A program made the translations under genes and the position numbers. Below are positions 1,273 to 8,838 of a DNA stretch of 64,000 nt, one piece after another. Source of the stretch: Thermaerobacter subterraneus DSM 13965 (lineage in GTDB: Bacteria; Bacillota; Sulfobacillia; Thermaerobacterales; Thermaerobacteraceae); contig NZ_JH976535.1 in NCBI RefSeq assembly GCF_000183545.2, positions 2,109,837-2,173,836 on the forward strand, written 5' to 3'. Within the stretch, counting starts at the first letter, position 1, and each line of letters begins with the position of its first letter. Under the pieces are notes generated by a model. The model did not search any database and was not told the origin of the DNA. It was given only the letters and a program-made list of their open reading frames with translations.

Positions 1273-3900
1273 TTAGGACGAACGCAGCCGCTCCGGGGTT
1301 CCCCCCGGGTCCCCGGCGCCACCCGCCGCGGGCGCACCGGGGCCGGCCGGGCCGGGAAGCCAGGCCGGCAGCGGGTAGGCCGAACGGACTGCCCGCCCGC
1401 CCACCTGCAGGTCCAGGTGGAGCACCAGGGGCAAGGCCCGCGCCGGGGGGCCGGGTTCGTCCCTTCCCGCACCGGTGGCCGGCCTCGCCCAAGGCGAGGG
1501 TACGGCCTCCTGGGGCCACCGGCCGGTGATCCAGCCCACCGGCACCAGGGACCTGGCAGCGGCCCCGCAGGCCATGGTGCCGGCGGCCAGCACCTGCCGT
1601 CCCGCCACCAGCTGCCACGTCCACCGCCCTGCCAGGGGCCGGGCGGTGTCATTGACCAGCCACACCGGCAGGCGAAAGCCGCGGCCCGGGCGGCAGCGCC
1701 GGGGCCACGCCCCCACGAGCAGGCGCACCGGCGCAAGGACCTCCCGGCATGCCCGGGCCGCCTCGCGGGGCCGTCCCTCGGCCGTGTAGAGGCCGTAGGC
1801 CGGACCGCCAGGAGGGTCGTTGAGCGCAAAAAAGAACCCGCCGCTGGCCGGGTAGGGCCGCCGGCGCAAAGCATCCCCGCTATACCTTACGAATCGCGCC
1901 TGGGCAGTCTGGTCGCCCGCCGGCCAGCCAAGGGACGCGATCACCGTAACATGGGGTGCCAGGCGCCACCGCCGTTCCAAGGCAGCGGGGTCGGGGACGT
2001 CCCCCGTGGGAAAGAACCGCATCGCCCCGCCGGTTCGGGTCCAGGACGGGGCACCCGCCCGTTCCAGGACGGGCCGGCCGGGGTCCATGGCGGCCAGCTG
2101 CCGCGCCAGGCCGGCGGCCACCCGGCTGGCCGCCGCCTGCAGCCACAGGATCCGAATGCCCGGCGGCACCCGGCCGCCCACCCCCTGTAGCTGTTCTTCG
2201 GCCAGGGGCAGGGCCGGCTCCGGGCAGATGGACCAGGCGATCACCGCAGGCCAGCGGCCTGCCTCTTCCACCCAGGCCGCCAGTTGTTCCCCCAGCGCGG
2301 TCGCCGCCTCCGGGGTGGGGCACCCCACCGGAGGCAGGTCCTGACAGAGGACGACGCCCAGGCGGCTGGCCGTCTCGTAGAGGGCGGGGTGGGCCAGGTG
2401 GGCGTACACCCGCAGGGCGTTGAGCCCCAGGGCCCGGGCCCGCCGGACCCAGGCCCGGGCCTGGCGCGGGGTGATAGCCCCCGGCCAGGTAGCCAGGGGC
2501 AGCAAGCAGGCGCCCCGGAAGCGCAGGGGCTGCCCGTTGAGGTACCAGGCGCCCTCCAGCCGCCGGATGAAGCGGACGCCGGCCAGGACTTCCACCGCGG
2601 GGGCCGGCCCCCAGGCCGCTGCGGGCGAGGCGGGTTCCCCGGAGCCGGCGGAGACCAACGGCGGCTGGGCCGTCCCGCCGGCAGGCTCGAAGCCGGCCCG
2701 CAGGCGGTAGAGGTGCGGCCGGCCCCAATCCCCTACGGTCCACAGCCGTGGGGAAGGCAGCGCAAACCAGACCTCCCAGGTGCCGCCGGGCGGCCGGGCC
2801 TCCACGTCCCAGGCCGCCCGGGCACCGGGGCCATCGAACCCGTCCGGCTCGATCTCGATCCAGCACCGGCCCTGGACGGCTTCCGTGGCCAGGTAGCGCA
2901 CCCGGGCACAGCCGTACGCCACGGCCGGGCCCGGCCCGCCCGCCGGCAGGTCCGGGGTCTCCCCCCTCGCCCCGGGTCGCCAGGGGACGCGGAGGGGCCG
3001 TGGTCCCGCCGGCTCCGGCCGTGCCCATGGCCCTGCCGGACCCGGCAGCGGGCGACCGGCGGCCCTCCCGCCGCCCCGGCCCGCTGCGCCGGACCCGGAC
3101 CCCGCCCCTTCTGCTTCGTCCCGGAAGAACCAGCTCACCGCCACCGGCACCACGCCGCGGACGAACCGCAGGCGGACCGGACCCGCCAGGCCCGGTGGGA
3201 GGAACCCCGGCGGAACCGCTTCGGGCCGGGCCCAGGCACCCCAGGCCACCGCCTGGACCCCCCCGGGTCCAGCGCCTTCCTGGGCGCCGGCAAGCAAGGC
3301 CGGTCGCCGCCTTCGTCGCCGGCGGAGGCGCCGGCTTTGCCGCCCCTCCTCCCCTCCTCCCAGTGGCCCGGCCACTTCTACGACCAGCCGGTTGGTCCCG
3401 GGTCGCAGGGAGCGGGTGACGTCGAGGTCCGCGGTGACCTGGCCGGCGCCGGGGACGTCGTAGGCGTCGCCGTTGACCTGCACCCGGGCCCGGCCCAGCA
3501 CCATGGCCAGCTCCAGATAGGCCCGGACGTCCTTCCCACCCAAGAGCCCCGGCGGCACCTCCACATCCCGCCGGTAGACCACCGCCCGCGGTGGAGCCGA
3601 GCCTGGCGGGCATGGGGGCTCCTCGGGTACCCGCACCCGGACCGGCGGGCCAGCCCGGCCGGCCCAGGTGACCTCCCAGGTCCCTTCGAGGCCGATCACG
3701 GCCTGCGCACCGCCGGCCGCGGTCCCCAGCCCCGCCGGCCTGTCGGGCCGTTCCTCCCAGGGGCTGGGACGGGAGCCGCCCTGGGAGCGCGGTGCCAGGG
3801 GCCTGCGCCCGTCCCGGGGCGGTTCGGGGGCCGTCAGGGGTGAGGGGTCGCCGGTTCCGTGATCTGGCCGGTGATCTGCAGAGTCTGCCGTCCATCCCAT
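1273..3900 (-). CDS. Glycoside hydrolase family 2-like protein
   Basis: 875-residue protein with the beta-galactosidase/beta-mannosidase (GH2) layout: an N-terminal jelly-roll-like sugar-binding domain (WEVTW, then YLELAMVLGRARVQVNG), an immunoglobulin-like part, and a TIM-barrel with RFRGACLLPL and LGLNALRVYAHL. ATG at 3900 follows GGAGGTGGCAACC. The usual acid/base motif W-S-x-x-N-E reads WSICPEP here, so Glu561 is present but the preceding Asn is Pro; no clear nucleophile motif is visible. A low-complexity Arg/Gly-rich stretch sits around residues 185-300. Activity is therefore uncertain; it could be a non-catalytic relative. It probably shares a transcript with the downstream glycosyltransferase. 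Confidence 0.8.
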   Translation of the reverse strand: MGWTADSADHRPDHGTGDPSPLTAPEPPRDGRRPLAPRSQGGSRPSPWEERPDRPAGLGTAAGGAQAVIGLEGTWEVTWAGRAGPPVRVRVPEEPPCPPGSAPPRAVVYRRDVEVPPGLLGGKDVRAYLELAMVLGRARVQVNGDAYDVPGAGQVTADLDVTRSLRPGTNRLVVEVAGPLGGGEEGRQSRRLRRRRRRRPALLAGAQEGAGPGGVQAVAWGAWARPEAVPPGFLPPGLAGPVRLRFVRGVVPVAVSWFFRDEAEGAGSGSGAAGRGGGRAAGRPLPGPAGPWARPEPAGPRPLRVPWRPGARGETPDLPAGGPGPAVAYGCARVRYLATEAVQGRCWIEIEPDGFDGPGARAAWDVEARPPGGTWEVWFALPSPRLWTVGDWGRPHLYRLRAGFEPAGGTAQPPLVSAGSGEPASPAAAWGPAPAVEVLAGVRFIRRLEGAWYLNGQPLRFRGACLLPLATWPGAITPRQARAWVRRARALGLNALRVYAHLAHPALYETASRLGVVLCQDLPPVGCPTPEAATALGEQLAAWVEEAGRWPAVIAWSICPEPALPLAEEQLQGVGGRVPPGIRILWLQAAASRVAAGLARQLAAMDPGRPVLERAGAPSWTRTGGAMRFFPTGDVPDPAALERRWRLAPHVTVIASLGWPAGDQTAQARFVRYSGDALRRRPYPASGGFFFALNDPPGGPAYGLYTAEGRPREAARACREVLAPVRLLVGAWPRRCRPGRGFRLPVWLVNDTARPLAGRWTWQLVAGRQVLAAGTMACGAAARSLVPVGWITGRWPQEAVPSPWARPATGAGRDEPGPPARALPLVLHLDLQVGGRAVRSAYPLPAWLPGPAGPGAPAAGGAGDPGGTPERLRSS

Positions 3901-4227: not shown

Positions 4228-4632
4228 ATGCGGAAGGTTCACGGCAGGGAGGGTGGAACCGGCGCCGGGCCGCCGGGCCGGGGACCCGTGCGGGTGGTCA
4301 ACCGGACCCGGGGGACGGAACTGGGCCATGCCATTGCGGTGGCGGCCTCGTGGCGCAGCCGGAGCCGGGGCTTGCTGGACCGGGACGAACTGGCCCCCGG
4401 GGAAGGCCTCTGGCTCTGGCCGTGCCGGTGGGTCCACAGCTTGGGTATGGGTTTTCCCCTGGACGTGGTGCACCTGGACCGGTCGGGCAGGGTGGTGGCC
4501 GCCTACCGCCTGGTCCCCGGGCGGGTCGGCCCCCTGGTGTGGCGCGGCCACAGTGTGCTGGAACTGCCCGCCGGCACCCTGGCGGCCACGGGAACACGCC
4601 CCGGCGACCGCCTGGCGTGGGAACCTGCGTAG
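4228..4632 (+). CDS. DUF192 family protein
   Basis: 134-residue protein of the DUF192 family, whose biochemical role is not established. ATG at 4228 is preceded by GGAGGAGGGCG. The conserved core is visible: an N-terminal VVNRTRGTELGHAI strand region, the R-S-RGLL-R segment, GEGLWLWPCRWVHSLGMGFPLDVV (family hallmark of a H-x-x-x-M/F-x-x-x-x-D region) and VLELPAGT near the end. No signal peptide is evident, whereas many family members are exported. The gene stands alone, 149 bp before the glutaredoxin-like gene. An inverted repeat around 4730-4752 lies in that gap. Confidence 0.8.
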   Translation: MRKVHGREGGTGAGPPGRGPVRVVNRTRGTELGHAIAVAASWRSRSRGLLDRDELAPGEGLWLWPCRWVHSLGMGFPLDVVHLDRSGRVVAAYRLVPGRVGPLVWRGHSVLELPAGTLAATGTRPGDRLAWEPA

Positions 4633-4781
4633 CACCACCGACCGGCGGCAGCAGCTGCGGCTGCACCCGGGCGCCGGCGACCGGCCGCCATGCTGATTTC
4701 TGTCAACCCGTATAGCGACGGCCTCCAGGTGGCAGGATGAACCTGCCGCCCAAGCCGGAGCCCCAATGAGGAGGTGCCCGG

Positions 4782-5078
4782 ATGTTCCCGCAGGTGGAGC
4801 TTTACGTTCAACCCGGCTGAGGGGATTGCCGCCATGCGGAGGAGTTCCTCCGCCGGATGGGGGTCGAGTACACCGCCTACGACGTGCGCCGGGACCCCGA
4901 CGCCTACGACCGGCTGATCCACCGCTACCAAAGCCGGGTCACGGCCACGGTGGTGATCGGCGAGAAGGTGTTTCGCGGCTTCGGGCGCAACCGGGAGGCC
5001 ATCGAGCGGGCGCTCAGGGAGGCGGGTGTCACAGGGAGCCCGCCGGGCCCGGGCGGCGGCGATGGCGAGGGCGGCTAG
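4782..5078 (+). CDS. Glutaredoxin-like selenoprotein candidate (in-frame TGA at 4818-4820)
   Basis: 98 residues if TGA at codon 13 is read as selenocysteine. ATG at 4782 follows GAGGAGGTGCCCGG. The reading is M-F-P-Q-V-E-L-Y-V-Q-P-G-TGA-G-D-C, followed by a normal glutaredoxin fold: EEFLRRMGVEYTAYDV, TVVIGEKVFRGFGR and a terminal helix. The TGA sits exactly where family members carry the first cysteine of CxxC, which would give UxxC with Cys16. The frame stays open and family-like for 85 further codons. A perfect hairpin begins 15 nt after the TGA. The cis-Pro of the TVP loop is replaced (VTATVV). Alternatives are a pseudogene or a TGC-to-TGA sequence error, both less likely given the position and hairpin. 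Confidence 0.75.
4832..4860 (+). promoter_or_regulatory. Candidate bacterial SECIS hairpin
   Basis: GCGGAGGA (4836-4843) pairs perfectly with TCCTCCGC (4846-4853). A physically plausible form is a 7-bp stem with an AGUU apical loop containing GU. The lower stem can be extended by CCAT (4832-4835) pairing with ATGG (4857-4860) across a 3-nt bulge. The apical loop lies about 24 nt after the TGA (4818-4820), inside the window known for bacterial SECIS elements, which lie within the coding sequence just 3' of the UGA. SelB binding is inference. Confidence 0.6.
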
Positions 5079-5188
5079 CCGGTTTCGCCATGGTGTCACC
5101 GGGTTAGCTCACCGGGTTAACAGGCACGTCGAGAAGGCCGGGACAGCACGCAGGGCGGGCAACGCGAGAAAGTGGCGGGAGTCCCGGG

Positions 5189-5358
5189 CGGATCGCCCGC
5201 TGCCCGCACCTGCGCAAAAGGCCCAGGCACCGGCCCGAGCGGCTCGCCCGCTGCCCGCGCCCCTGCAGCAGGACCTGGGACCGCCCCGGGCGGATCGCCC
5301 GCTGCCCTGTCCGCTCCGCAGACCCCCGGGACCGGCCCGGGCGGCGGTCGGCTGCGGA
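5189..5358. repeat. 51-bp tandem repeat, three full copies plus a partial one
   Basis: Copies of a unit starting CGGATCGCCCGCTGCCC begin at 5189, 5240, 5291 and (degenerate) 5342, exactly 51 bp apart. Each full unit includes CGGGCG-GAT-CGCCCG or a close variant, which can form a short hairpin. The array lies in the 307-bp gap between the convergent glutaredoxin and glnA genes, immediately downstream of the glnA stop. It is open in several frames because 51 is a multiple of 3, but no start or ribosome-binding site makes a gene convincing. It may act as a weak terminator or mRNA-stabilising array; this is inference. Confidence 0.75.
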
Positions 5359-5385: not shown

Positions 5386-6702
5386 TCAAAAGATGGGCAG
5401 GTACTGATCCAGCTCCCACTGGTGCACCTGGACGCGGTAGATGTCCCACTCCGTCCGCTTGGCCTCCAGGTAACGGCTGAACAGGTAATCCCCCAGGGCC
5501 TCCCGCACCAGCCCGCTCAGGCGCATGTCGTCCAGGGCCTCGCCCAGGCTGCCCGGCAGCGGCTCGAGCCCCCGGGCGGCGATCTCGGCCGGGTCCAGCT
5601 CGAACACGTTCTCCTCCAGCGGCGGGGGCGGTTCCAGGCGGCGCTCCAGGCCGTCGGCACCGGCCCGCAGCAGGACGGCCAGCGCCAGGTACGGGTGGCA
5701 ACAGGGATCCGGCGCCCGCCATTCCAGCTCCCCCGCTTCCCAGCCGGCCACCAGCCGGGCCAGGGGAGCGTGGGTGTCGCGACCCCAGACCACGTACACC
5801 GGCGCCTCGAACCCCGGCACCAGCCGCTTGTAGGAATTGACCAGGGGATTGGTCACGGCGCAGAGGGGCCGCGCATGGTGGAGCAGCCCGGCCAGCCAGT
5901 GGCGGGTCACGGCGGCCCGGCTCCAGCCCGAACCCGGCGCGGGACGAACCCGCATCCGCACGTGCAGGCCCGAGCCGTGGGTGCCGGCCCGGGGCTTGGG
6001 CAGAAGGGTGGCGTGCATGCCGTGGCGCTCCGCCACGGCGTAGACGGCCCGCCGGGCGATCAGCAGGTGGTCGGCGGCCGCCAGGGGCGGCTGCCAGCCC
6101 AGATCGATCTCGTGCTGCGCCGGGGCCACGGCGTGATGGACCGACTCCACCACGATGCCCATGCCCTCCAGCGCCAGGGCGATCTCCTGCCGCACCGGCT
6201 CCCCCGCGTCCCGCACCGAGAGGTCCAGATACCCCGTCCGGTCCGGCACCCGGACCTCCGGGCGGCCCCGGCGCCGCCGCAGGAGGTAGAACTCCATCTC
6301 GAAGGCCAGCTCCACGGCGACGCCGAGCCCGTCCAGCCGGCGCACCGCGGCCTGCAACCGCTCCCGCGGGCAGCCGTCGAAGGGGCGCCCGTCGCGGGTG
6401 TAGATCCCGGCGGGCACCATGGCCACGCGGCCACCCGGCTCCCAGGGCAGGACGAACACCTGCTCCCCGCCGGCCCGCAGGCGCATCTCCCGCTCTTCGA
6501 CGCGCATGAACCCTTCCAGGGACGCCCCGTCCACCCGCACGCCGCCGTCCCAGGCGGCCGCCGCCTGCTGGACCGGCAGAGTCAGCCCTTTCTGCACGCC
6601 GAGGACGTCGGCGTACACCAGCTGCACCAGCTGGATGCCCTGCTGGGCCAGTCGCCGGGCCGGTTCGTCGGGAGGAGCCGGCTCAGCCGGCGGCCGGCGC
6701 AT
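5386..6702 (-). CDS. glnA: Glutamine synthetase, type I-like
   Basis: 438 residues, close to the 444 of Bacillus GlnA; would make glutamine from glutamate, ammonia and ATP. ATG at 6702 follows GGGGGAGGCAGGGCGCG and overlaps the 3' end of glnR by 20 bp, so the two form an operon. Visible motifs: YADVLG, DGASLEGF, EMEFYLL, HHAVAPAQHEIDL, the flap NSYKRLVPGFEAP and DPCCHPYLALAVLL. Departures from the family: the loop NGSGMH is HGSGLH, and the SRGxSTR segment before VEVR is AGWEAGELEWR, losing an active-site arginine. It may be a functional but divergent enzyme or a paralogue with another amine or acid substrate. Confidence 0.88.
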   Translation of the reverse strand: MRRPPAEPAPPDEPARRLAQQGIQLVQLVYADVLGVQKGLTLPVQQAAAAWDGGVRVDGASLEGFMRVEEREMRLRAGGEQVFVLPWEPGGRVAMVPAGIYTRDGRPFDGCPRERLQAAVRRLDGLGVAVELAFEMEFYLLRRRRGRPEVRVPDRTGYLDLSVRDAGEPVRQEIALALEGMGIVVESVHHAVAPAQHEIDLGWQPPLAAADHLLIARRAVYAVAERHGMHATLLPKPRAGTHGSGLHVRMRVRPAPGSGWSRAAVTRHWLAGLLHHARPLCAVTNPLVNSYKRLVPGFEAPVYVVWGRDTHAPLARLVAGWEAGELEWRAPDPCCHPYLALAVLLRAGADGLERRLEPPPPLEENVFELDPAEIAARGLEPLPGSLGEALDDMRLSGLVREALGDYLFSRYLEAKRTEWDIYRVQVHQWELDQYLPIF

Positions 6703-7689: not shown

Positions 7690-8838
7690 ATGGCCACGGG
7701 TCACGGACGGGTGCGCCATTTGTTCGCCAGCGGCAACACCGGCCACGGGTTTCAGTCGTTCTTCGAATACATCGCCTGGCCCGAGCCGCGCCGGGTCTTC
7801 GTCCTCAAGGGCGGGCCGGGCACCGGCAAGTCGGCGGTCATCCGGATGGTGGCAGAGGGGCTGATGGAGAAGGGTGTGGGGGTGGAGCTGTTCCACTGCC
7901 CGTCGGATCCGTCCTCCCTGGACGGCGTCAACGCACCCGAGCTGGGGCTGGCCGTGGTGGACGGGACGCCGCCCCACGCGGTGGAGCCGCCCCTGCCCGG
8001 CCTGGTCGGCCGCCTGCTGAGCCTGGAGGCCACGGCCGGCCGGGACCTGCTGGCGTCCCGGCAGGACAGGATCGACGCTACCGGGCGGCGGGTGCGCCAG
8101 CGCTTCCAGCTGGCCCACCGCTACCTGGGACTGGCCCTGGAAGCCCTGGGCCTGTACGAGGACTTCTACGAGCATGCAGGGGCTCTTGACCTGGCGGCCC
8201 TTGACCACTCCGCCCACGAGATCGAGGCCGCCGTCTTCGAGGGGCACCGGGTCGTGCGCGCCGGGCGGCGCGGGCGGATCCGGCGCCTGTTTGCCAGCGC
8301 CGTGACCCCCGAAGGGCCCCGCCACTATCTGGACAGCCTGCTGGACCCGCTGCCCCGGCGGGTGTTCATCCGCGGCAACCCGGGCACCGGTTGCGCCACC
8401 CTGGTGGCCCGGGTGGCGGAAGCGGCCCTGCGCCGGGGCCTGGACATCGAGGCCTACCACTGCGGCCTGCACGGGCAGCGCCTGGACCACGTGCTCATCC
8501 CCGAACTGGGCGTGGCGGTGGTGCACAACGCCTACCCCCACACCTACGAACCCAAGACGGGCGACCTGGTGATCGACACGGCGGCCTTCGTCAACGTGGA
8601 AGCCCTGGAACGGTACCGGGAGGAGATGGAGGTCGCCCAGGCCCTCTTCGGGCAGGCTTTCGACCAGGGCATCTGGTACCTGCGCCGCGCCCTGATGGCC
8701 CACCAGGAGCTGGAGGCGATCTACGCCACGCCGGAGCTGCGCGCCCAGGTCGAGGCCTACGCCAGGGAGATCCTGGCGGAGGCCGGCGCCCTGATGGAAG
8801 AACAAGCCCGGCGGCGGGAGCGCCAGCAACTGGCGTGA
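7690..8838 (+). CDS. Tandem P-loop ATPase of the PRK06851 type
   Basis: 382-residue cytoplasmic protein built from two similar halves, each starting with an LFAS motif and a nucleotide-binding loop. The first half has an intact Walker A, GGPGTGKS (residues 41-48). The second has GNPGTGCA (about 229-236), in which the catalytic Lys is Cys, so only the first half should bind and hydrolyse ATP normally. Related proteins occur mainly in spore-forming Firmicutes, but their function is not established. ATG at 7690 follows AAGAGGGGGATACCAGG. Near the C-terminus a charged helix (EEQARRRERQQ) may form a coiled coil. The gene faces away from glnR across a region with a GlnR operator. Confidence 0.75.
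   Translation: MATGHGRVRHLFASGNTGHGFQSFFEYIAWPEPRRVFVLKGGPGTGKSAVIRMVAEGLMEKGVGVELFHCPSDPSSLDGVNAPELGLAVVDGTPPHAVEPPLPGLVGRLLSLEATAGRDLLASRQDRIDATGRRVRQRFQLAHRYLGLALEALGLYEDFYEHAGALDLAALDHSAHEIEAAVFEGHRVVRAGRRGRIRRLFASAVTPEGPRHYLDSLLDPLPRRVFIRGNPGTGCATLVARVAEAALRRGLDIEAYHCGLHGQRLDHVLIPELGVAVVHNAYPHTYEPKTGDLVIDTAAFVNVEALERYREEMEVAQALFGQAFDQGIWYLRRALMAHQELEAIYATPELRAQVEAYAREILAEAGALMEEQARRRERQQLA

Follow-up and report, generated by a model that had tools for sequence, protein, structure and literature searches.

A Thermaerobacter subterraneus gene that very probably encodes a selenocysteine glutaredoxin

Selenoprotein glutaredoxins and related families

Glutaredoxins carrying selenocysteine (Sec) have been in the literature since 2005-2006, with the thermophile Moorella thermoacetica included (PMC1088965, PMC1794560, PMC13188914), and known examples come, among others, from Geobacter sulfurreducens, Alkaliphilus and the same Moorella species (PMC1794560, PMC13188914). 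The gene described here lies in a stretch of 64,000 nucleotides of the T. subterraneus DSM 13965 genome (the window), and its predicted product resembles these PF00462 proteins in the glutaredoxin fold, in a Sec standing first in a UxxC motif and in an in-frame UGA with a hairpin after it whose apical loop contains G, but differs from them in the motif itself (GUGDC or GUADC), in an alanine at the place of the cis-proline and in a host genus that is strictly aerobic and thermophilic. Similar in fold is cGrx1 (PDB 7c10), the selenoprotein glutaredoxin characterised from Clostridium (Alkaliphilus) oremlandii, although its identity to the Thermaerobacter protein, known here from its sequence and a model, is just 29%. 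The YruB family (TIGR02196) offers the top NCBIfam model and, in BC3987 of Bacillus cereus (PDB 3zij), the top fold match at 39% identity, but BC3987 carries Cys and not Sec, and its cis-Pro site reads TP. Finally, the Uxx-star (seleno)proteins (NF041212, NF041211, NF041114 and NF047338) are glutaredoxin-like and their profiles align over the same motif, although all these models score under their cut-offs and the Thermaerobacter protein keeps the resolving Cys. With a probability of about 0.95, we consider that the gene at 4782-5078 encodes a selenocysteine glutaredoxin, whose UGA would be decoded as Sec with the help of a SECIS hairpin.

A glutaredoxin frame with an internal TGA

On the forward strand, the frame goes from an ATG at 4782 to a stop at 5076-5078, with no other stop besides the TGA at 4818-4820 (codon 13), and a Shine-Dalgarno-like GGAGGTG (4770-4776) stands 5 nt upstream of the ATG. 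With the TGA read through, the product of 98 aa would begin M-F-P-Q-V-E-L-Y-V-Q-P-G-U-G-D-C-R-H-A-E-E-F-L, where the redox motif P-G-U-G-D-C contains an intact UxxC (U13-G-D-C16), and Cys16 (codon TGC, 4827-4829) is invariant in the homologue alignment. The first-pass annotation, made from the letters alone, had placed this TGA exactly at the first Cys of a CxxC motif that retained its second Cys, and had seen the frame run on into a glutaredoxin-like fold. Both observations were confirmed. The Pfam Glutaredoxin profile (PF00462) matches residues 5-62, that is, both sides of the TGA, with 42.8 bits for a gathering score of 22.9, and an AlphaFold2 model built with Cys substituted for Sec (mean pLDDT 88) gives a thioredoxin fold of the glutaredoxin kind, with residue 13 just ahead of helix 1 (residues 14-26). 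Among solved structures, this model is best matched by BC3987 (Z 15.1, rmsd 1.0 over 75 aligned residues) and then by the dithiol cGrx1 (Z 14.2, rmsd 0.9, also over 75). The best NCBIfam models, YruB (66.2 bits) and Uxx-star NF041212 (40.7 bits), both stay under their curated cut-offs of 88.55 and 66, respectively.

Proposed catalysis and the missing cis-proline

For this YruB-like glutaredoxin we infer a catalytic cycle, with its substrate and electron donor. In this cycle U13 would be the attacking residue and Cys16 the resolving one: the selenolate would attack a disulfide, or else a peroxide or sulfoxide, after which Cys16 would resolve the selenenylsulfide.

The cis-proline is a near-invariant residue of thioredoxin folds, and its replacement in thioredoxins can permit the binding of metal or Fe-S. 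At this site (window 4941-4949, residues 54-56) the Thermaerobacter protein has, in place of the TVP or TP typical of glutaredoxins, an alanine (Ala55, codon 4944-4946), and the PF00462 profile recognises it regardless. Alanine precedes strand 3 in the four Thermaerobacteraceae sequences (the window's genome, G000, together with G001, G002 and G004) and in a homologue from G311, five closest sequences that include both Sec and Cys forms, whereas proline is found there in all remaining homologues aligned (SRVTATVVI versus SYSTPTVVI). It is conceivable, if rather doubtful, that these proteins form a distinct subfamily of Sec redoxins with a changed chemistry, such as metal-cluster chemistry, selenide or arsenic handling or the use of an unusual electron donor, and not ordinary disulfide reduction. 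Its proposed markers would be GUxDC, the alanine for cis-Pro and an RGFG near the C-terminal helix, with a distribution covering Thermaerobacter and, in the Cys version, a few relatives of high GC content. In this line, the product could be a selenoprotein and still not a disulfide reductase, a reading compatible with Sec decoding that differs on function, since the protein may bind metal or selenide/arsenic species. The alanine shared by all five members of the subfamily points in that direction, as does the role of Sec as a metal ligand suggested for the related UXX-star proteins (PMC13188914), but the U/CxxC pair is complete, as in redox-active glutaredoxins, and the adjacent genes that were inspected included no metal-resistance gene; we regard this function as unlikely.

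The selenocysteine machinery

A gene of this kind needs a host able to insert Sec, and a search for selA, selB, selC and selD had been proposed as a check on the first-pass annotation. All four are present in the window's genome, which measures 2.89 Mb and is 99.96% complete: tRNA-Sec (anticodon UCA, 82.8 bits, in agreement with ARAGORN), SelB, SelA (577 bits) and SelD (401 bits). Moreover, SelD has its own in-frame TGA in the four genomes of the genus (GKAGUGCK, or GKGGUGCK in G001), at a site where Sec-type SelD proteins carry Sec. Together with the TGA of the glutaredoxin, this leaves at least two genes in the genome that would need UGA to be read as Sec. Two strong hairpins follow the TGA of selD (L029 ~1501-2436, reverse strand; G000:C1:1627908-1628843), one of them with a GGUCC loop ~33 nt past it. 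Among genomes with UGA-form homologues, selA was found in 17 of the 18 checked, the lone exception being 63% complete, although this co-occurrence is a weak test because 7 of the 10 genomes with Cys-form homologues carry selA too.

Orthologues, synteny and a clean deletion

Five genomes of the GTDB family were compared: G000, its congeners G001, G002 and G003, and G004, a metagenome-assembled genome (MAG ZC4RG37) of the sister genus. The gene is present in G001 and G002 with TGA at the same codon and 66-71% identity over full-length alignments, so a sequencing error becomes very unlikely with the same TGA in three species. The replacement of U by Cys that homologues were expected to reveal was also found, since codon 13 is TGC in G004 and the remaining homologues read have either Cys or TGA at this position; no unrelated stops or frameshifts were detected in the relatives' genes, whose frames are intact. 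Scanning 398 phylum genomes and the genome contigs brought up numerous homologues whose motif at this place is UxxC or CxxC, and many relatives in Bacillota and Desulfobacterota have UxxC. The orthologues are under purifying selection: dN between them is well below dS (0.116 and 0.407 for G000 and G002), and it is below dS also on either side of the TGA codon.

The neighbourhood is conserved as well. The same convergent glutamine synthetase gene (5386-6702, reverse strand) adjoins the glutaredoxin gene in G000, G001, G002 and G004, and a DUF192 gene (4228-4632, forward strand) occupies the opposite flank in G000, G002 and G004. Further along the window, an ATPase-like protein (7690-8838, forward strand) shows P-loop similarity to broad AAA/STAND families only. 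Both neighbours are kept in G003, which lacks this glutaredoxin gene and has almost nothing aligning to window 4652-5258 (~0.6 kb); its glutamine synthetase, at the deleted site, is 99% identical to the window's, and the DNA around the deletion is 91-99% identical. Judged from these alignments, G003 has undergone a clean deletion and does not hold a decaying gene. A short palindrome, GGCAGGATGAACCTGCC (window 4731-4747), is still present in G003 (L088). Despite the loss of the glutaredoxin gene, G003 retains tRNA-Sec, SelA and SelD. As for G004, a link between its Cys form and the loss of the Sec pathway was considered and rejected, as this genome has selA; no tRNA-Sec scored above generic tRNAs in this 91% complete MAG. 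A second glutaredoxin-like protein, divergent in sequence, is encoded in both G003 and G004 (L020 and L021, ~1501-1770, reverse strand); it has CPYT where CxxC would stand (MLELYGTRTCPYTRELREELW) and resembles UxxT Uxx-star proteins in their Cys version.

The absence of the gene from such a close congener indicates that it is dispensable, and this would suit a nonsense-mutated pseudogene, with the TGA acting as an ordinary stop in a gene under decay and no product extending past residue 12. Such a history is very improbable, however, when the same TGA has been kept in three species with Cys at the exact codon in a fourth, without further stops or frameshifts and with dN below dS at both sides of it, in a genome with complete Sec machinery, and when UGA stands at this site in numerous other families and in a different phylum. 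Hardly credible is a further alternative, in which a short peptide is terminated at the TGA and re-initiation at ATG 4857 yields 73 aa lacking UxxC: an ORF exists mechanically at 4857-5078, but its Met is encoded in neither congener (CTG in G002, CGG in G001), and the product would be devoid of the first strand and the first helix.

The hairpin downstream of the UGA

Bacterial SECIS elements are hairpins that directly follow the UGA and have G in a small apical loop (PMC1088965). The glutaredoxin gene has a hairpin of this description: the perfect self-complementary 18-mer at 4836-4853, reported by the first-pass annotation, is present, and realistically folds as a 7-bp stem (4836-4842 with 4847-4853) closed by an AGUU loop (4843-4846), 23 nt past the UGA. 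Its weight as stand-alone evidence had been overestimated, as a stem this long appears anywhere in the SECIS range in 46% of synonymous recodings (P 0.46) of this GC-rich coding sequence; hairpin length alone was therefore rejected as proof. The folding energy is mildly unusual, within the best 3% of recodings (P 0.03).

Comparative analysis gave a clearer signal. When all homologues were folded, the UGA forms repeatedly showed a stem around an AGUU, GUU or GUA loop at one fixed distance from the UGA. At this fixed place (loop AGUU/GUU ~23 nt after UGA), the mean stem was 6.1 bp in 24 UGA forms versus 2.8 expected by synonymous recoding (combined P 3e-13), and 2.3 bp in 15 Cys forms versus 2.1 expected (P 0.97), with P 1.6e-4 between both groups, values that ignore relatedness and refer to a place picked from the same set of sequences; for the window gene alone, P was 0.06. 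The occurrence of long stems at the fixed place in UGA but not in Cys homologues supports a SECIS function. The covariation sought in the hairpin was also found, with compensatory pairs among related UGA sequences (C-G/U-A, G-C/A-U and G-C/C-G). Within the family, the hairpin is identical in the three Sec orthologues, and two synonymous changes reduce the stem of G004's Cys orthologue to 4 bp.

No stem was found at the fixed place in the UGA homologues L046, L047, L049 and L072, from other families of the class, nor in L037. The first four are UGA-form glutaredoxins with GUGSC/GUSGC motifs, and a hairpin closer to the UGA (CCATC..GATGG) may serve in L046, L047 and L049. The Rfam model SECIS_1 did not match the glutaredoxin hairpin, and it is uninformative here because it matched none of the control genomes either, E. 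coli included. We make no claim for a conserved lower stem close to the UGA, since the Cys sequence forms 3 of its 4 pairs too.

Regarding decoding, we infer that SelB with Sec-tRNA-Sec would bind the hairpin at 4836-4853 during translation, and that Sec would be delivered at the UGA in 4818-4820 instead of termination. Gene, codon, pathway genes and comparative hairpin signal were all read from DNA, and the combination of a Sec pathway, a TGA conserved between congeners, a sister genus with Cys and a UGA-specific, position-specific hairpin is far beyond chance, which supports the initial proposal of a Sec-containing glutaredoxin.

Significance

Selenium glutaredoxins were already known, and the novelty of this one is therefore limited. 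Less usual are its strictly aerobic host genus and the loss of the near-invariant cis-proline. T. marianensis is a strictly aerobic thermophile (PMC3035304), and published trends indicate that the Sec trait favours anaerobes and also high temperature; Thermaerobacter goes against the first trend and fits the second. A text search of the papers available found none naming both Thermaerobacter and selenocysteine. These strictly aerobic, high-GC thermophiles have a complete Sec pathway, which would serve more than SelD, and gene callers that treat UGA solely as a stop would cut or miss the glutaredoxin gene. Moreover, one syntenic site holds, within a single family, the predicted Sec form, its Cys counterpart and a clean deletion; this makes up a compact natural experiment, which bears on why Sec is kept or lost and on the role of the cis-proline in a Sec redoxin.
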